Below are positions 7,422 to 36,156 of a DNA stretch of 36,156 bases, in pieces; position 1 is the first letter of the stretch; every line of letters begins with the position of its first letter. The stretch is from a virus. Made by a program: the position numbers and the translations under genes. Where the stretch lies: the IMG/VR virus record IMGVR_UViG_3300034031_000051, positions 1 to 36,156 of that record, one strand, 5' to 3'. The notes beneath the pieces are model-generated. The model was given only the letters and a program-made list of their open reading frames with translations, was not told the DNA's origin and made no database searches.

Positions 7422-7970
7422 TTAATTTAATTTTATTGGAAATTTATACGGAAATCCGTACTTAACACCGTTTTTATTAGCAAACGATATTGGAAATGAG
7501 TAAGGAAATCCTTTGGCTTTTAATGCTTCCGGTTCTTTAGGTATTTTATATATATTAGATTCTCTGAATTGTGTGAAATTCAAACCGAATACACAACCAG
7601 CTATTCTATCAACATTGCCATCTTTAAAGGATGTTACTTTTATATCTGATAAAATTTCATATTCACCATCAATTTGATTTTCAAAATATGTTATAATATC
7701 ATCAGCAATCAGTGAACAATCTGATACTATTTCAATATCATTTCCTTCAATATCTGTATCATAAGAATCAGCAATTGTAATACTGAACTGATGAATTTTT
7801 TTATCACCTCTGATAGTTTCAGGACTTATAAAAGCAATGTTAGCAACCGGATAAACTAAATCTGATTTAGAATTAAAATCAAATTCATTCCCAAACAAAA
7901 CCGTTTTAACTTGTGGATGTGATTCTAATACAGATTGTAATAATTTTTTATATTGATTAACTGTAATCAT
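7422..7970 (-). CDS. Tail-terminator / neck-type protein (tentative)
   Basis: This 182-aa protein has an N-terminal helix (TVNQYKKLLQSVLESHPQVKTVLFGN) followed by strands and an acidic centre. Size and position (after portal and connector, before fibres) fit a tail terminator or tail-completion protein, which caps the tail tube at the neck. It abuts the connector gene without a gap (7970/7971). I do not see a diagnostic motif. An alternative is a baseplate or head-closure protein. Confidence 0.45.
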   Translation of the reverse strand: MITVNQYKKLLQSVLESHPQVKTVLFGNEFDFNSKSDLVYPVANIAFISPETIRGDKKIHQFSITIADSYDTDIEGNDIEIVSDCSLIADDIITYFENQIDGEYEILSDIKVTSFKDGNVDRIAGCVFGLNFTQFRESNIYKIPKEPEALKAKGFPYSFPISFANKNGVKYGFPYKFPIKLN

Positions 7971-8543
7971 TTATAATAATCTCCTATAATATCCAGTTTT
8001 GTATGCTCTGCTTTTATAGGCTTCGCTATAATTATATGAATCATCTGGTAAACTAATCCCAGTAAATCCAAAGGTTGTATCTATCTCTGATGGCACATCT
8101 GTTTCATCGTTTTCATCCGTTCTAAGGTGTTCAATCAGTCTGGACTTGTAACCATCCAGTTTAGCAGAATAAGAGCTTCTAAGAGCTTCTAAATCCTTTA
8201 AATCACTAGTATTTGAATTATCATCTTTAAGCGTCTGTACGCCCTTAGCAGTAACTTTATAATGAATTGGATTAAGTGAGTATAAAAGAGCACCATAAAC
8301 CATTACAGGCTTAATATATTCAAGTAATAATGCATCTTCATCACTATAGGTGTAACCGGAAACAGTTTTACCTGAAACAAGAACATTTGATAACTTTTTA
8401 TAAGTATCAGCTCCGATTAAAGGAACTAGTTCAAGTTCTTGAAACTCTTTAATTGCTAGGTTCAAAACTTTCTCACCTACATTATCTTGAATAATTGAAT
8501 ATTCTTTAAGTTCCGGTACTGATATAAATAATATCTGTTTCAT
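7971..8543 (-). CDS. Head-tail connector-like protein (DUF6712-type)
   Basis: This 190-aa protein is mainly helical, with the pattern LKEYSIIQDNVGEKVLNLAIKEFQELELVPLIGADTYKKL. It resembles the DUF6712-type proteins common in Bacteroidota phages next to the portal, which are thought to be head-tail connector (adaptor) subunits. It follows the portal with a 1-nt overlap and precedes a tail-terminator-like gene, which fits a role at the neck. The family assignment is from memory of its N-terminal pattern. Confidence 0.55.
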   Translation of the reverse strand: MKQILFISVPELKEYSIIQDNVGEKVLNLAIKEFQELELVPLIGADTYKKLSNVLVSGKTVSGYTYSDEDALLLEYIKPVMVYGALLYSLNPIHYKVTAKGVQTLKDDNSNTSDLKDLEALRSSYSAKLDGYKSRLIEHLRTDENDETDVPSEIDTTFGFTGISLPDDSYNYSEAYKSRAYKTGYYRRLL

Positions 8544-13051: not shown

Positions 13052-13063
13052 TATATAATACGT
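13052..13063 (-). promoter_or_regulatory. Late-promoter motif for scaffold/capsid (ACGTATTATATA)
   Basis: An exact match to the late consensus, identical to the lysis-unit copy. It overlaps the last base of the protease stop codon and lies 18 nt before the scaffold ATG. It would give the capsid genes a start separate from the protease gene. Confidence 0.6.
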
Positions 13064-13692
13064 TACCTGTTTTCTATTAATAATTCTTTGAAATCATTCA
13101 GGAAATCATTTAGGTTTTTATCAAATGCAGAAGTAGTTTTACTATGTAGTTCTAATACTACATTGGTTTCTGTATCTATAAAATCAAATAATCCTTCAAT
13201 TGAAAAACCTTTAATTTCACCAGATTTAATCTTTGCCCAAACAGCATCATCAGTAACTGTACAACCGCAAATCCACCCACCGTCTATGTTTGGTAATCCC
13301 TTAGGTGCAGATATACCTTTAGCTTCATCAACTATCCAACTTTGCCACATAAAGCTTCCAGCATCTTGTTTTGAATGCTCAATATTGAAAGCATTGTTTA
13401 AGCCTTTTTTACTGAAATGTTGTGCTATTTCTTTGATAGTTTGTTTATCAAACTTTACTGCATACTCACCAAATTCTTCTGAATACCTGTATATGGGTAT
13501 ATCAGGTGTCATAGCGTATCCCAAAAGAAATCTTTCATCATCACTGGTGAAGAATTGTTTAATAGGTTGTTTATTGAAGTGAAGAAAATCAATTTCAATT
13601 GCAGGTGCATTTACTAATGCAATAGCTGATACATAAGAACCATCATCAGGATTAATTTTTAAATCAATTAGTGGTAAACTTTTCTTTCTCAT
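13063..13692 (-). CDS. Prohead protease, XkdF-like
   Basis: This 209-aa protein has the arrangement of the XkdF family of putative phage serine proteases: FNIEHSKQDAG (the His at about residue 106 of the chosen start), then WQSWIVDEAKG, GGWICGCTVTDDAVWAKIKSGEIKGFSIEGLF, with the Ser of FSIEG as the likely nucleophile. It matures the procapsid by cleaving scaffold and capsid N-termini. The start was set at 13692 (MRKKSLPL). An upstream ATG at 13737 would place the first codons inside the preceding terminator hairpin and the promoter motif. Residues about 63-90 (PIYRYSEEFGEYAVKFDK) are nearly repeated in the small gene at 26975. Confidence 0.75.
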   Translation of the reverse strand: MRKKSLPLIDLKINPDDGSYVSAIALVNAPAIEIDFLHFNKQPIKQFFTSDDERFLLGYAMTPDIPIYRYSEEFGEYAVKFDKQTIKEIAQHFSKKGLNNAFNIEHSKQDAGSFMWQSWIVDEAKGISAPKGLPNIDGGWICGCTVTDDAVWAKIKSGEIKGFSIEGLFDFIDTETNVVLELHSKTTSAFDKNLNDFLNDFKELLIENR

Positions 13693-13699
13693 TTTCCTA

Positions 13700-13711
13700 T
13701 ACATAATACGT
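13700..13711 (-). promoter_or_regulatory. Late-promoter motif for the protease gene (ACGTATTATGTA)
   Basis: It matches the late consensus and lies only 7 nt before the chosen ATG, directly behind the tape-measure terminator. AGGAAA lies between motif and ATG. The short distance implies an almost leaderless transcript. Confidence 0.58.
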
Positions 13712-13721
13712 GTACCGGAAA

Positions 13722-13750
13722 TAAGAAAGGCTTCCATGTTAGAAGCCTCT
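13722..13750 (-). terminator. Intrinsic terminator after the tape measure gene
   Basis: Stem GGCTTC/GAAGCC with a 7-nt loop, followed on the minus strand by TTTCTTATT. Stem and loop are identical to the hairpin at 15939-15967. Confidence 0.78.
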
Positions 13751-26732: not shown

Positions 26733-26988
26733 ATTTACTGTATTTTACTTTAATTTCCTGAACTACTTTCTTACCGTTCAATGTTGAATTAATAACCTCG
26801 CATTGATACCGCTTATCATTTACAATAATGTATACTGAATCATTGGTTAGATAATTTGGAGTAGTTACAAATATTGAATAATCGAAATTATTTATCTCTG
26901 GTTTAGGTTCTGGTTTAACTGGTACTGCAACTGGTGCAGACGTGAATAAGCTTTTAATGAAGCTTAATAATCTTTTAATCATTTTCAT
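26731..26988 (-). CDS. Small protein with amphipathic N-terminus, unknown function
   Basis: This 85-aa protein starts with a basic, hydrophobic helix (MKMIKRLLSFIKSLFTSA), then a Pro-rich linker (PVAVPVKPEPKPE) and a strand-rich domain (DSVYIIVNDKRYQCEVINS). The helix could touch the membrane. No family was recognised. It is the last gene of the overlapping operon, starting inside the end of the preceding gene (14 bp). Met3 is an alternative start. Confidence 0.55.
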   Translation of the reverse strand: MKMIKRLLSFIKSLFTSAPVAVPVKPEPKPEINNFDYSIFVTTPNYLTNDSVYIIVNDKRYQCEVINSTLNGKKVVQEIKVKYSK

Positions 26989-27235
26989 CTTCTTTTAATT
27001 TATCTTTCATTTTAGCGCAAAATGTATTTAATTCTTCTACCGCCTTATTAGCGTACATATCAATCACTTCTGCAATTGTATTCTTATCCATTGTTACAGC
27101 ATACTCACCAAATTCTTCTGAATTTCTGTAAATAGGTTTATTAGGTGTAATAATTAAACCACCAATACAAAAATTTATATACTCACTTGCTATTTCTAAA
27201 TGTTTAATCATCTTTTTATTTTCTTCTTTATTCAT
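26975..27235 (-). CDS. Small protein with a segment copied from the prohead protease
   Basis: This 86-aa protein carries TPNKPIYRNSEEFGEYAVTMDKNTIAEV (split here by sense at about residues 30-57), nearly the same as TPDIPIYRYSEEFGEYAVKFDKQTIKEI in the XkdF-like protease. At DNA level 25 bp are identical (27099-27123 and 13460-13484). The parts on either side are unrelated to the protease and lack its catalytic His and Ser. It could be an inhibitor, a decoy or a recombination product. It overlaps both neighbours. Confidence 0.65.
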   Translation of the reverse strand: MNKEENKKMIKHLEIASEYINFCIGGLIITPNKPIYRNSEEFGEYAVTMDKNTIAEVIDMYANKAVEELNTFCAKMKDKLKEDEND

Positions 27236-27476
27236 CTTCTTTTAATTTATAATATAAGTTTGTGTAAGCATCGAAGGTTGTTTTAATACAAGCTCCGCAC
27301 CCACTGTTGAATTGATTTGATAATCCTTCAACTTTAGTTATTATTACAGGGTAAAGATTTTTCATCAGTTGAACTTGATAGCTGGTTACATTACCACCGT
27401 TCCTATCTGATGCTATATATTCTTCTATAGCATCTTTTAAGGGCTGTAACGCCTCGAATAATTCTTTATCTGTCAT
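27228..27476 (-). CDS. Small helical protein of unknown function
   Basis: This 82-aa protein is mainly helical (KELFEALQPLKDAIEEYIAS, SYQVQLMKNLYPVIITKVEG) with a CGAC pair (GCGACIK) near residue 60 that could bind metal. I do not recognise a family. It overlaps the sigma-like gene by 11 bp and the next gene by 8 bp, so it is part of the coupled operon. Confidence 0.55.
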   Translation of the reverse strand: MTDKELFEALQPLKDAIEEYIASDRNGGNVTSYQVQLMKNLYPVIITKVEGLSNQFNSGCGACIKTTFDAYTNLYYKLKEDE

Positions 27477-28380
27477 TGGTTAATTTATTTTTAATCTCTT
27501 TTATCCGGCTCTCTAAATTCATTGCAGCTTCGTAGTGCTCCGGCTTAAGTCTTTCCTTTGCCTTATCACTGATAGTATGATGAAACTTTTTATTATCTAA
27601 CATATAATAGAATAATCCTTTATCATCATCACTCAAGTCATCTATAATATCTTCCACCTCAAAACCATACATCAATTCAAATTTTGATGGTTCATATGGT
27701 TCATCATATATAATCAGTTCTTGAGTTTGAGTAACATTATCATTAGCCATATCCGTATGTATTTCTGATGTTTGAATCTGAAAGTTATTAATATCAAATG
27801 CTGATGCATACTGAACCATCTTTGCAATTTTAGTAGGTTTTGGATACCGCTTATCAACACTGAAACACTGCCAAATGATTATTCTTAATGTTAGAGCTAC
27901 TAAGTGACTTTTATTAGTCTCATACATGTGAATTATCTTTTCCGGCTTGATCTTCGCTAAATGCATAAAGGCTTCATTATAGCAATCATCTAATAGTTCA
28001 TTTTCAAAATCCAGATGATTCATCTTAAGATACTTCTTGATATAAAGCTTAACCGGATTAGTACTTGAATCAGAAAAGATACCAAAGTATTCACCTGCAA
28101 CCCTACCAGTTAAATAGAAGTCTGTTAATATCTCATTCTTTCTTTTTTCTGCTTCCGGCTGGTGCTCTCTAAACTTCTTTTCATACTCCCAATACTCCGA
28201 TCTGGTAATGCTTTGAATTGAATTGGTATCCTGTCTATAGGTAAAGTTTTTATATGTATTAGAATATCCTGATATACCTATTGAAGTTGCCGTAGGTAAG
28301 GATTCATCATCACTCCAAATGATTTTAAAACGTTTAAAACCCTTTCTAAACTCATTACCTGTTAATCTATAGTACTTCAT
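27466..28380 (-). CDS. Sigma-factor-like protein, candidate late regulator
   Basis: This 304-aa protein resembles sigma-70 family proteins in its middle part. Residues about 108-180 follow the region-2 pattern: a helix (LYIKKYLKMNH), an acidic helix with DDCYNEAFMHLAKI, then LVALTLRIIIWQCFSVDKRYPK, like the LyrIarN...DhlRk helix of sigma region 2. Residues about 243-300 (EDIIDDLSDDDKGLFYYML and a basic helical end) could stand for region 4, but the match is weak. Position just upstream of the terminase genes is where many phages keep their late-gene activator. I infer that it may direct RNA polymerase to the ACRTAWWATNTA sites. An alternative is another HTH protein. Confidence 0.5.
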   Translation of the reverse strand: MKYYRLTGNEFRKGFKRFKIIWSDDESLPTATSIGISGYSNTYKNFTYRQDTNSIQSITRSEYWEYEKKFREHQPEAEKRKNEILTDFYLTGRVAGEYFGIFSDSSTNPVKLYIKKYLKMNHLDFENELLDDCYNEAFMHLAKIKPEKIIHMYETNKSHLVALTLRIIIWQCFSVDKRYPKPTKIAKMVQYASAFDINNFQIQTSEIHTDMANDNVTQTQELIIYDEPYEPSKFELMYGFEVEDIIDDLSDDDKGLFYYMLDNKKFHHTISDKAKERLKPEHYEAAMNLESRIKEIKNKLTNDR

Positions 28381-28649: not shown

Positions 28650-28926
28650 TATTTTTAATTCTAAATTTTTGTGATTCTTGTTCAATACCAACAAATTCTA
28701 AACTATATTTATCACCTGAAATACAAACCTCAATAGATTCTCTATCTACAGGATTTACTATGTATAAACATTTAGCTCCCTTAATCCATTGATCTGCATC
28801 CGTGTCGGATACTAAATAATGTTGAAAGAAGTATTTATTATTCTCAAATTTTCCCATTATTACTATGTTATGATATATAACATCTGCTGTTTTTTCTTTA
28901 AACCATTTCTTTATCTTATCAATCAT
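28642..28926 (-). CDS. Small protein of unknown function
   Basis: This 94-aa protein (start set at 28926, MIDKIKKWF, overlapping the previous stop with ATGATTGA) is strand-rich with an amphipathic N-terminal helix. The middle ([29 protein letters not shown]) shows no recognised motif. It shares general layout with the 87-aa gene two positions upstream (short strands, a Cys, a final [15 protein letters not shown]-type strand), so they might be distant paralogues. It has no signal peptide and lies inside the coupled operon. Confidence 0.55.
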
Positions 28927-29311
28927 TATTTTTATTCCTTTTCCGGTACTCACCACGTTTAATACCTTTGCGTGCTTTACTCATTTTAGCTATAGTTTCT
29001 TCACTCCGCTTTACACCTATTTTAGCTTTACTTATTTTTAATCTAGTTTCTTCACTACGGTTCTTACCAATTTTTGCGATACTCATTTTAGCTTTAGTTT
29101 CATCACTAACAATCCTACCAATAGTTGATTTTCGAATTTTCTCTTTATGTTCTTCACTAAGTTTTTTTCCTACGTTTGCTTCACGCATTTTAGCTTTATG
29201 TTCTTCACTAAGTTTTTTACCTAACCAATGTCTCGCATTACTAGCACTCATTTTAGCTTTTGTTTCTTCGCTATGCTTTTTACCTGCAAATCCTTTAGAT
29301 TTATTTATCAT
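28919..29311 (-). CDS. NUMOD3-repeat DNA-binding protein without nuclease domain
   Basis: This 130-aa protein is almost wholly made of NUMOD3 motifs (G-K-K-x-S-E-E-x-K-A-K-M-S), starting at Gly10, 31, 48, 65, 82 and 99, with a partial one at 116. After the first, spacing is exactly 17 residues. NUMOD3 motifs normally occur in one to four copies as DNA-binding add-ons of HNH or GIY-YIG homing endonucleases. Here no nuclease motif (GIY, YIG, HNH) exists in the protein or beside it. It may be a DNA-binding protein that reads a repeated target, or the leftover of a homing enzyme. It overlaps neighbours on both sides by a few bases, so it belongs to the operon. Confidence 0.8.
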
Positions 29312-31840: not shown

Positions 31841-31891
31841 TTTGTATTGATTTTGTTTTGATAATTATATTGTTCTTAGTTTGTAAATAAA

Positions 31892-31917
31892 GTGGTAAGG
31901 CTTGCAAACCCTACCAC
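31892..31917 (-). terminator. Hairpin in the leader of the rep-like gene
   Basis: Stem GTGGTA..GG/CC..TACCAC followed on the minus strand by TTTATTT. It lies between the leftward promoter at 32047-32078 and the rep-like ATG, so it could act as an attenuator. The T-tract is imperfect. Confidence 0.45.
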
Positions 31918-32046
31918 ATCAAAACCAAAAACAATGAAACACTTATTTAACATAAATAGCATCAAATATTAAAAGTGACTATATTATTTTAAAATATATT
32001 TTTGCTATCTACTTTCCAGAATTGGAATAGTTGAATAAGATGTATA

Positions 32047-32078
32047 CAAAGATAATCCAGAACCTACCGGAAGTCAAG
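32047..32078 (-). promoter_or_regulatory. Leftward host-type promoter toward the rep-like gene
   Basis: TTGAC, 18 nt, TATCTTTG on the minus strand, an exact fit to the Bacteroidota -7 box with the same spacing as the rightward promoter at 32780. Transcription would start near 32040 and run through a leader of about 200 nt into the rep-like gene. Confidence 0.6.
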
Positions 32079-32100
32079 CGAAGCAATCAAATAAAGTTTA

Positions 32101-32255
32101 TCCTTAGTTTATCCTTAGTTTATCCCTACTTAGTCCTCACTTACTATAACTCTTATTCCCGTTCTAGTCCTCACTAAATGCTTACTAAGATTATTTCTAA
32201 TCCCTACTAAGTCCCTACTAAATACCTATTGAGTACCTACTTTATGCCTACATTA
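32101..32255. repeat. 14 tandem 11-bp iteron-like units
   Basis: From 32101 the sequence reads as 14 consecutive units of 11 bp (one of 12), for example TCCTTAGTTTA twice, then TCCCTACTTAG, TCCTCACTTAC, TCCCTACTAAG, TCCCTACTAAA, TACCTATTGAG, TACCTACTTTA, TGCCTACATTA. The consensus is TCCCTACTAAG. Units 5, 6 and 9 are degenerate. An 11-bp period is one turn of the helix, so bound proteins would align on one face, as in replication-origin iterons. It lies between divergent promoters and next to the initiator candidate. Confidence 0.75.
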
Positions 32256-32311
32256 TTAAGAATGAAGAATTAAGAATGAAGAATTAATTATATTAAGAAT
32301 TAAGAATAATA
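32255..32311. repeat. AT-rich repeats beside the iterons, possible unwinding element
   Basis: ATTAAGAATGAAGA is present twice in tandem (32255-32268, 32269-32282), followed by further ATTAAGAAT variants. It is very AT-rich and directly follows the last iteron, the place of a DNA-unwinding element in iteron origins. Function is inferred. Confidence 0.5.
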
Positions 32312-32727
32312 CAATTAAAAGGATTTTTGGAAGGGCAATAAGCTAATGCTTAAAGATGCTTCGCATGGTAGAAGCAAAAATAAAAGTAATTAAATTATAA
32401 AATTGAAATATTTAATAATCATTTACCTACTTCAATTAAAATATCTTATACTTCAATCCCGTAAGGGTTGTTATACTTATAATAACTAGCTTACTTACTT
32501 TTTCTTCTCTGCTACTTGCTAGTAAGGAGAATATACTTCAACTAAACTTACCCCCCGATTGCGTTTTACCCCCCATCACAGTTGAAGCATTTTAAGCCCC
32601 TGTAAAGAACTTTACCTTCTTTTGGATATATGTATCATAAATTAAATAATAATCAATCCTGCATCATCTTATGCAGTCCATTTAAAGATTAATCAACTTT
32701 TCAATCTTATTTAAATTTAAATAAAAA
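32312..32727. other. Remaining origin-region DNA without genes
   Basis: No coding frame, RNA gene or clear promoter was found here. It contains small inverted repeats (ACTAGC/GCTAGT near 32489-32525) and two C6 runs (32551-32556, 32569-32574), each preceded by TTA, inside an inverted repeat CTTCAACT/AGTTGAAG (32536-32543, 32580-32587). C6 runs stand out in such AT-rich DNA. Confidence 0.4.
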
Positions 32728-32775
32728 TATCGGCTGAAAAACCGATAAATAACAATATCGGTAAATGAACCGATA
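32728..32775. promoter_or_regulatory. Two operator dyads TATCGG-N8-CCGATA
   Basis: Two perfect dyads (32728-32747 and 32756-32775), each with 6-bp arms and an 8-nt spacer, have centres 28 bp apart. The second ends 4 bp before the TTGAC of the rightward promoter. This is the arrangement of a binding site for a dimeric regulator acting cooperatively. The regulator is not identified. Confidence 0.65.
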
Positions 32776-32779
32776 CAAC

Positions 32780-32810
32780 TTGACAAATGAATGTTTCTAG
32801 TTTATTTTTG
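32780..32810 (+). promoter_or_regulatory. Rightward host-type promoter before the endolysin
   Basis: TTGAC, 18 nt, TATTTTTG, an exact match to the Bacteroidota -7 form. A 13-bp interrupted palindrome GTATT-CGT-AATAC (32810-32822) covers the expected start point and could be a further operator. Confidence 0.65.
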
Positions 32811-34531: not shown

Positions 34532-34825
34532 TTGAAGCTGCACAAAGTACATAGCGAACCAAACACATCAGAACTAATGTATCTGGTACTGGAAAAGCTA
34601 TGTGCTTTAACTGAAACAGTAAATGAGCTTAAAGAAGAAAAGAAAGAGCTTGAAGAAAAGATTAATGTTATATATAATTTCTTTGCAGAAGAAAAAGAGC
34701 CTGTGACGAAAAAAAGGCTAACCAAAAAAGAACAGCTTGCGCTTGATGTTGAGAATAAAAACAAAGAAATTAAGAAGTTATCAATGCAGCGTCTTCAATC
34801 GAAAACAAAAGCATTATCTTCTTGA
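34532..34825 (+). CDS. Small coiled-coil protein
   Basis: This 97-aa protein has a coiled coil (LEKLCALTETVNELKEEKKE onward, about residues 20-50) and a basic, Lys-rich second half. The frame starts with TTG at 34532; ATG at 34577 (MYLVLEKL) is the alternative. It overlaps the integrase 3' end by 31 bp on the opposite strand. No family recognised. Confidence 0.45.
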   Translation: MKLHKVHSEPNTSELMYLVLEKLCALTETVNELKEEKKELEEKINVIYNFFAEEKEPVTKKRLTKKEQLALDVENKNKEIKKLSMQRLQSKTKALSS

Positions 34826-36156
34826 TCTAGCATTATTCCTAATTCTTCGCTTATGTATTTTTGTGTCATACTTAAATCAGAATGCCTGTTTTGTTTTCTC
34901 AAAAAAGTCAAGATTTTCAATGCACTCATATTTTTTGTGTTAAAATTATTTTCAATGAAATAAGTGTTACCTGAATGTTTTAAGCCGTATCCGGTTTTAT
35001 GTGGGGGAAAAAGATTAGGATGTATTTTTCTTAATCTAGTTAAATGGTCTTTAAGACACTCACTAAGACTAGTAATACTCCGTTCTTTGTTTCCTAAAAT
35101 TCTAAAAGTGCCTGATGCAAAAGCCGGAAACACCAAATAGTCTGGATTCAAATCATCACCAAAAGTGAGATTAAGATACTTTTCAAGCTCTGTAGCTAAA
35201 ACTGGTGGTACATATACCTCAAGTGTCTTCTTAACTTTTTTACCATTCTTAGCTATGTGTGGTGGTATAAGTATCTTATTGTTCTTAAGATCAAGCATCC
35301 ATAACCTTAATCTAAGTATCTCTGATGGTCTAATAAAAGTGAAGTAAATCATTCTGGCAAAAGCATAATCATAATAATTACGGTTTTCCAAGTAATCCCA
35401 CAGTAAATCTAATTCTTCTCTGGTGAAGATTTGAAACCTCTTTAGATTAGTACCTTTTACATCATCAACAAGTACATCATCTCGTTTGATATTGTGACAC
35501 GGGTTAATTGCAAGTTTGCGTGAATCTACCAAAGCTTGAAAGTACATACCTAACCAGTCGATTCTATTGCTTGCAGTGTTGTAGCTCCAATCAGCTTTTA
35601 CTAGTTGCTGCCCTGTTGCTTTATCAATTTTAATTTTTCCGTTTCTGTGAAATTGTGGTTGAGGGCTTGATTTCAGTTCTATCAATTTTTCAATATCATC
35701 TATGGTAACCTTTCTTACATCATTGGCTTTTCCAATATCTTCAAGAAAAGGTTTTAAGGTATTTGTCCAAAAACTTTCTAAATTACGTTTGGAATGTTTT
35801 TGATTAGGTAAGGGATTATCAAAGCCTTTTTTGCGTATTACAAATTTTAATACTTCATCAAAATTATAAGCTTGTGATTCCTCAATTTCTTCTATCCGCT
35901 TTTGTTCTTCTATCCGTTCTTTTTCCTCCGGTGATACACCAGCTTCTAAATCTTGCTTCACCAGTTCAAGTAAAATATCAAGTTCCTTATCTCTCTTTTT
36001 CAGGTCGGGAATTGCGTTTAATCGGATGTTATAACTCTTGCCATATTCTTTGATGTAGCTGGTGGTTCCATCTACTTTTTTGGTATACCTAACACACCAT
36101 TTTTTGTTAGCTTGATCTTTGTAAATTGAAGGTTCTGAAAAAATTATAGCACTCAT
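34795..36156 (-). CDS. int: Tyrosine recombinase integrase with variant box II
   Basis: This 453-aa site-specific recombinase has an N-terminal arm-binding part (about 1-90), a SAM-like core-binding domain (about 95-215) and a catalytic domain. Catalytic residues: Arg276 (FIRPSEILRLR), Lys in AKNGKKVKK (about 303-309), box II YGLKHSGNTYF (390-400), His425 (NRHSDLSMTQ) and nucleophile Tyr434 (TQKYI). Box II has Tyr and Lys where His and Arg are usual; I recall this variant from other Bacteroidota integrases. It inserts and excises the phage genome. The start codon is at the window edge, so attP would be expected just outside, upstream of it. Confidence 0.85.
   Translation of the reverse strand: MSAIIFSEPSIYKDQANKKWCVRYTKKVDGTTSYIKEYGKSYNIRLNAIPDLKKRDKELDILLELVKQDLEAGVSPEEKERIEEQKRIEEIEESQAYNFDEVLKFVIRKKGFDNPLPNQKHSKRNLESFWTNTLKPFLEDIGKANDVRKVTIDDIEKLIELKSSPQPQFHRNGKIKIDKATGQQLVKADWSYNTASNRIDWLGMYFQALVDSRKLAINPCHNIKRDDVLVDDVKGTNLKRFQIFTREELDLLWDYLENRNYYDYAFARMIYFTFIRPSEILRLRLWMLDLKNNKILIPPHIAKNGKKVKKTLEVYVPPVLATELEKYLNLTFGDDLNPDYLVFPAFASGTFRILGNKERSITSLSECLKDHLTRLRKIHPNLFPPHKTGYGLKHSGNTYFIENNFNTKNMSALKILTFLRKQNRHSDLSMTQKYISEELGIMLDQEDNAFVFD

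Follow-up and report, generated by a model that had tools for sequence, protein, structure and literature searches.

A putative iteron origin associated with a predicted winged-helix initiator in an integrating temperate phage

The window, which is the whole 36,156-base stretch of DNA analysed here and a complete IMG/VR virus record, contains a degenerate array of 11-bp direct repeats. Together with an adjoining AT-rich repeat and a 317-aa protein with a predicted winged-helix domain, the array probably makes up the origin of theta replication in an integrating temperate phage, a reading to which a probability of roughly two in three is assigned. The computations identified the array itself, its conserved link to one family of initiator-like proteins, and its absence from related phages in which the initiator gene is replaced. 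It is highly probable that the array works with the 317-aa initiator. The positions of the features are listed in Table 1.

Table 1. Positions of the array and of other features in the window
Feature	Position	Strand	Evidence
Putative iterons, 14-15 degenerate 11-bp units	32095-32254		Autocorrelation, shuffles, arrays at 13 homologous initiator genes
AT-rich 7/14-bp tandem repeat ATTAAGAATGAAGA	32255-32307		Tandem repeat finder, AT content
Putative replication initiator, 317 aa	30887-31840	-	Profile searches, alignment, structure prediction
Structured 5′ leader, outer helix and inner hairpin GTGGTAGGGTTTGCAAGCCTTACCAC (31892-31917)	31869-31935	-	Fold z = -4.5; covariation
Bacteroidota-type promoter TTG-N20-TATCTTTG, initiator transcript	32047-32077	-	Pattern scan; 17 bp from array
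Two inverted-repeat boxes TATCGG...ACCGATA (32728-32775), then rightward promoter TTG-N20-TATTTTTG (32780-32810)	32728-32810	+	Pattern scan
Inverted repeat CTTCAACT...AGTTGAAG around two TTACCCCCC motifs, in non-coding gap	32537-32595		
XkdF-type protease	13063-13737	-	
86-aa ORF repeating part of the XkdF-type protease	26975-27235	-	PIYRNSEEFGEYAV compared with PIYRYSEEFGEYAV
304-aa protein	27466-28380	-	PHROG 31903
130-aa protein	28919-29311	-	Five NUMOD3 motifs, no nuclease domain
Tyrosine integrase	34795-36156	-	Pfam PF00589, 4.2e-8; start codon coincides with the end of the record

Repeat array and adjoining AT-rich region

The 11-bp periodic array is real, though degenerate. Its self-match at a lag of 11 is 0.57, compared to a window mean of 0.278 (s.d. 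0.047), and within the window it is the strongest signal of its length at lags of 5-39. The array scores 7.3 in the 1060-bp non-coding gap, against 3.8 ± 0.45 for dinucleotide shuffles, and none of the 500 shuffles reached its score. On the strand of the initiator gene, the repeated word is approximately AGTAGGGACTT. Read on the plus strand, the first three units are AGTTTATCCTT and represent the sole exact copies. About eight further good units are of the TACTAAGTCCC type, and the middle of the array is very degenerate. Without the three identical units the score is 5.7, which is still above the shuffle maximum of 5.1. The good units are positioned in two registers 1 bp apart, with the slip located between approximately 32138 and 32150.

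A preliminary description of this DNA, made from the sequence alone, had placed an uninterrupted array of 14 units of 11 bp at 32101-32311. The period and the approximate number of positions are retained here, with the qualification that only three units are exact and about eight more are good. The register slip contradicts the uninterrupted arrangement, and the former interval combined the array with the separate AT-rich repeat, to which its final 55 bp belong; the array begins at 32095 instead of 32101 and extends to about 32254.

The same description had mentioned an AT-rich repeat next to the array. The segment 32255-32310 has an AT content of 86%, and the 7/14-bp repeat is a candidate DNA unwinding element. 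The region thus has multiple tandem direct repeats in helical phase, apart from their degeneracy and the 1-bp slip, with a candidate unwinding site beside them and a gene for a protein with a predicted winged helix-turn-helix (wHTH) at a distance of 255 bp, all of which are traits of iteron origins. The gap does not contain an exact DnaA box of the pattern TTWTNCACA, and the interpretation of the repeats as a DnaA-box array was rejected; DnaA boxes are common, not universal, at iteron origins. The GC skew is uninformative for mapping the origin, as it is confounded by a switch of gene direction at the same place.

Predicted initiator, its promoter and its leader

The 317-aa protein can be divided into an N-terminal winged-helix-like domain (approximately residues 11-113), a coiled-coil-like linker, and a C-terminal domain (approximately residues 221-317). 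The predicted order of secondary structure elements at the N-terminus is helix-helix-helix-strand-strand, which is consistent with a winged helix and agrees with the gene type previously proposed for this position. The AlphaFold prediction from the single sequence had a pLDDT of 33, and a later model was calculated from an alignment of 13 sequences. In the latter, residues 11-100 follow the winged-helix order with a mean pLDDT of mostly about 75-90. They continue into a predicted helical linker and a low-confidence C-terminus, so that the model is confident only in its N-terminal part. Foldseek searches with the predicted wHTH domain provided weak matches, including the staphylococcal plasmid RepA structures 4pt7, 4pql, and 5kbj with E-values of 0.01-0.05; the best E-value for the model was about 0.005.

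At the level of sequence, a weak match to O-like replication initiators (PHROG 678, E = 0.0047) was obtained for the window protein only, and the score for Pfam Phage_rep_O is 14.5 bits, compared to a cut-off of 28.7. PF06970 (RepA_N) was not matched, and the 13 family members have no Pfam match. Because no match of curated strength to the family was found in Pfam, NCBIfam, PHROG, or the PDB, we assign the protein to an initiator-like family that is so far undescribed; it is O-like in its function, but its membership in Phage_rep_O or RepA_N is not demonstrated. The C-terminal domain is common to the 317-aa protein and a 545-aa BT4734-like protein of the related phage G001 (Smith-Waterman score of 66 compared to 28.9 ± 5.3, reached by none of 2000 shuffles); the remaining relatives showed no sign of it. 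The sharing of this domain fits a role of the protein in replication.

The Bacteroidota-type promoter should, according to its sequence, transcribe the 317-aa gene, and most relatives have a similar promoter-like sequence on the downstream side of their array. The 5′ leader of the transcript is structured. A hairpin is positioned shortly 5′ of the initiator start codon in all 14 phages of the family (the window phage and the 13 relatives described below), and in most of them it is enclosed by an outer helix. The inner stem covaries, with a value of 0.498 compared to 0.250 ± 0.046 in shuffled alignments and lower values in slid versions, and 14 cells are changed on both sides of the stem, compared to 5.5 in shuffles. 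These values come from the complete alignment of 14 rows (A4), and an alignment of 12 relatives with two shortened rows (A5) was set aside. The hairpin has no Rfam match above the gathering score. It may control the synthesis of the initiator.

The inverted-repeat boxes and the rightward promoter that follows them (Table 1) are separate from the array and likely constitute an operator-promoter pair, in which the boxes are repressor operators of the divergent transcript. The inverted repeat at 32537-32595 is resembled by a CCCCCC/GGGGGG pair beside the integrase of G001.

Arrays at homologous initiator genes and their absence in sister phages

Direct searches of IMG/VR, GTDB genomes, named phages, and plasmids did not identify close relatives of the 317-aa protein. 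Relatives of the phage were gathered through alignments of the virion proteins XkdF and portal, and 20 records were read, most of them whole or nearly so. In an iterated profile search, 13 of the viral records each yielded a single homologue of the 317-aa protein, at the syntenic position. The phmmer E-values of eight of these homologues range from 1.8e-15 to 3.9e-4, and all are at most 5e-18 after iteration, at an identity of merely 18-25% in the alignment of the homologues (A3).

An array with a period of 10-13 bp is present in front of all 14 initiator genes, about 250 to 610 bp before the start codon. At 12 of the 14 genes the array exceeds all 200 shuffles, and in G046 and G039 it was reached by 3 and 12 of 200, respectively. 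The repeated words are unrelated and vary from phage to phage: CGGTGTTTAGT in G041, GGCGGTCATAA in G044, ACTGTGGTCAA in G040, GGTTATAGTGTA in G053, TGCCTGAAAGG in G048, and a TTAGGG-based unit in G031, among others; the words also include TTAGGGTTTTGC and TGTATAAGATG. Four phages (G040, G041, G044, and G046) have the same core-word spacing of 11-13-11-11 with three different words. The four closest initiator pairs do have iteron words in common. Across these relatives, which are few and related, a simple Mantel test showed no significant correlation between winged-helix identity and the sharing of iteron words (p = 0.39), which counts against the origin reading.

Five sister phages (G001, G032, G033, G049, and G050) serve as matched controls. 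They do not contain a homologue of the initiator and encode a protein of about 470-550 aa at that place, which has a BT4734-like N-terminal domain in four of the five, with an additional PriCT_1 domain in G050; the protein of G049 has no Pfam match. There is no array upstream of the replacement gene in any of the five, the observed values being reached by 24-176 of 200 shuffles. The replacement module has the same genome position and, in G001, the same C-terminal domain as the module of the window phage, but differs in its N-terminal domain and in the missing array. Because arrays are present with the initiator and absent where it is replaced, the array travels with the 317-aa initiator family. 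The lack of an array in G001, the first close relative, was dropped as evidence against conservation, since G001 represents a module swap. The comparison lends good support to the preliminary reading of the array as iterons: the 14 phages have it in a conserved position and with conserved spacing but with different words, and phages with another gene in place of the initiator lack it. From this we infer the function as an origin.

The main rival to the origin is a pure operator. The array would then serve solely the leftward (initiator/early) promoter, as its operator or as an upstream activating array, and would be recognised by the 317-aa protein or by a different regulator of the phage. The origin would be at another site, such as within the initiator gene, where lambda has it. 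The position of the array, 17 bp from a promoter-like sequence and similarly placed in relatives, suits an operator of the initiator promoter and counts against the origin. Helical phasing fits regulators too, and lambda-type origins are located inside the O gene (PMC7466680). However, it would be unusual for a promoter operator to consist of six to thirteen tandem sites that extend over 100-200 bp and whose words change freely. Furthermore, the initiator genes do not contain comparable repeats, and the best periods inside them are mostly multiples of three, as in coding sequence. The array is also gone in the sister phages with the other initiator gene, whose expression is still needed. A role as operator alone is thus considered unlikely.

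A functionless, decaying minisatellite, or tandem duplicates of a ribosome-binding-site region, would be a still poorer explanation. The window array is degenerate, and the same word occurs in 2-5 copies in contigs of unrelated phages, three times directly 5′ of a start codon with an AGGA-like motif. However, no ORF starts beside the window array. Furthermore, 14 phages have arrays in the equivalent position, their words being independent and their spacing conserved, and the matched controls have none, which makes such an explanation improbable. The contigs in question came from a search with a degenerate three-unit pattern, which matched six contigs, two of them with identical sequence; the exact array as a query had no matches elsewhere. 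The six were rejected as homologous origins, because the repeats comprise 2-5 units and belong to unrelated phages; in three cases they are duplicated ribosome-binding-site regions. These three (L103, L104, and L106) have short tandem arrays of ACTAAGTAGG(N) immediately 5′ of start codons, which are tandemly duplicated ribosome-binding sites.

Other repeats were observed in the relatives. G046 (L182, approximately 2643-2708) and G039 (L171, approximately 13653-13718) contain a second, 12-bp array about 1.4 kb upstream of the initiator, consisting of CACCTGATTATA three times and then CAGGTCATTATA three times in two mirror-image blocks, which is a probable operator. A relative of the Nonlabens phages (L011, approximately 7560-8250) has about 700 bp of non-coding, degenerate repeats around AGAAATTAGT...ACTAATTTCT, at the place equivalent to the genome end of phage P12024S.

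Lifestyle, proposed mechanism and known systems

The window phage has minus-strand genes for the virion proteins terminase, portal, and XkdF-type protease, and it also encodes an M15 peptidase of the endolysin type and the tyrosine integrase. Its nearest named phages are Nonlabens P12024S and P12024L, with which it has only virion proteins in common (identity of 35% for XkdF and about 22% for portal). The host is probably a member of Bacteroidota, as judged from the relationship to the Nonlabens phages, from promoters of the Bacteroidota type, and from the low GC content. Almost every relative also has the 304-aa protein encoded upstream of its terminase gene, and the position of this protein resembles that of the sigma-70 region 2 protein of P12024S, possibly a late regulator. 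The 86-aa ORF also matches the protease of G001 and, by its sequence, appears to be a partial gene duplication. The 130-aa protein is probably a remnant of a homing endonuclease.

Scans with Pfam and PHROG did not recognise a helicase, primase, or polymerase gene in the window phage, as stated in the preliminary description, nor a partition gene. The integrase mentioned there is confirmed; the suggested plasmid-like lifestyle is not supported, and that of a phage-plasmid was rejected. The record starts exactly at a stop codon, many of the relatives' records likewise end exactly at gene boundaries, and integrase homologues are located at or near the record ends in 15 of the 20 relatives searched. 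The records look like proviruses trimmed from host contigs. Characterised extrachromosomal mycobacterial prophages have a parABS cassette in place of the integrase (PMC7157519). We regard the virus in the window as an integrating phage that needs an origin in the way lambda does, and not as a phage-plasmid. The lytic growth of a phage requires an origin, and therefore an iteron origin, such as that of lambda, does not imply a plasmid stage.

A partition centromere would be the remaining explanation of the array. Adaptors of the TubR type have a winged helix and bind to arrays that resemble iterons. A centromere of an extrachromosomal prophage, of the TubR type or like parC of plasmid R1, whose ParR uses 11-bp repeats for partition and requires two of them (PMC9426499), was nevertheless rejected as very improbable, because the Pfam and PHROG scans did not recognise any ParM, ParA, ParB, or TubZ-like gene, including the motor protein gene that accompanies the repeats in ParMRC and TubZRC systems, because the window phage and most relatives have integrases instead, and because the neighbouring protein has its C-terminal domain in common with a primase-type protein.

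For the array as an origin, the following mechanism is proposed. After induction or infection, the leftward promoter would transcribe the initiator, which would bind cooperatively along one face of the DNA at the helically phased units. Melting of the AT-rich repeat beside the array would follow, and the C-terminal part of the initiator would recruit the helicase and replisome of the host, because the phage encodes none that was recognised. Binding at the array probably also represses the initiator's own promoter, since the array is only 17 bp away from it.

A broader proposal is put forward tentatively, at slightly less than even odds. The phages may have an undescribed family of single-protein replication modules, in each of which a winged-helix initiator from outside the known families is combined with contiguous iterons of 11-12 bp on the upstream side of the initiator promoter. 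From phage to phage the word would change while the spacing (e.g., 11-13-11-11) is kept, resulting in many mutually compatible origin specificities; the leader RNA would possibly set the initiator dosage, and a BT4734-like/PriCT primase-type module would be able to take the place of the whole module at a single genome position. If true, this provides a predicted origin and initiator for a temperate, probably Bacteroidota, phage lineage for which no described origin was found, and 14 initiator-iteron pairs that form a natural series of altered specificity with unaltered geometry. The specificity of initiators for DNA, and exclusion between co-resident prophages by common origins, would be directly testable, and the modules are a possible source of compact replicons for these hosts.

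The origins of lambda and Stx phages similarly belong to temperate integrating phages, and have an O-type initiator, which corresponds to the weak PHROG 678 match here, and direct repeats beside an AT-rich tract; their initiator recruits the host replisome (PMC7466680), as proposed here. However, their iterons, four in lambda and six in Stx phages, are inside the O gene (PMC7466680), and they employ the helicase loader P, whereas the window phage has 14-15 contiguous 11-bp units upstream of the gene and no recognised loader gene. Iteron plasmids such as RK2, F, P1, R6K, and pPS10 have in common with the proposed module of the window phage a winged-helix initiator encoded beside the origin, tandem direct repeats with helical phasing, and an AT-rich neighbouring region (PMC4980987). 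In contrast, classical plasmid iterons are 17-22 bp long and present in 2-7 copies (PMC4980987), often with DnaA boxes, and the window phage has a unit of 11-12 bp, no match to a Rep family, and integrase and virion genes.

The replicon of the PLE satellite is also that of a mobile, integrase-bearing element without its own helicase, and has a wHTH initiator of the RepA_N type whose C-terminus is unassigned, as well as repeats located in non-coding DNA (PMC7145576). The weak fold matches to 4pt7, 4pql, and 5kbj represent a likeness to the staphylococcal RepA of pSK41 and pTZ2162. The differences are that the family described here does not match PF06970 in sequence and that PLE needs a helper phage. 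Compared with these known systems, the units of the window phage are short, contiguous, and present in many copies, and they are located upstream of the gene; moreover, the initiator is undescribed, and the repeated word turns over freely.
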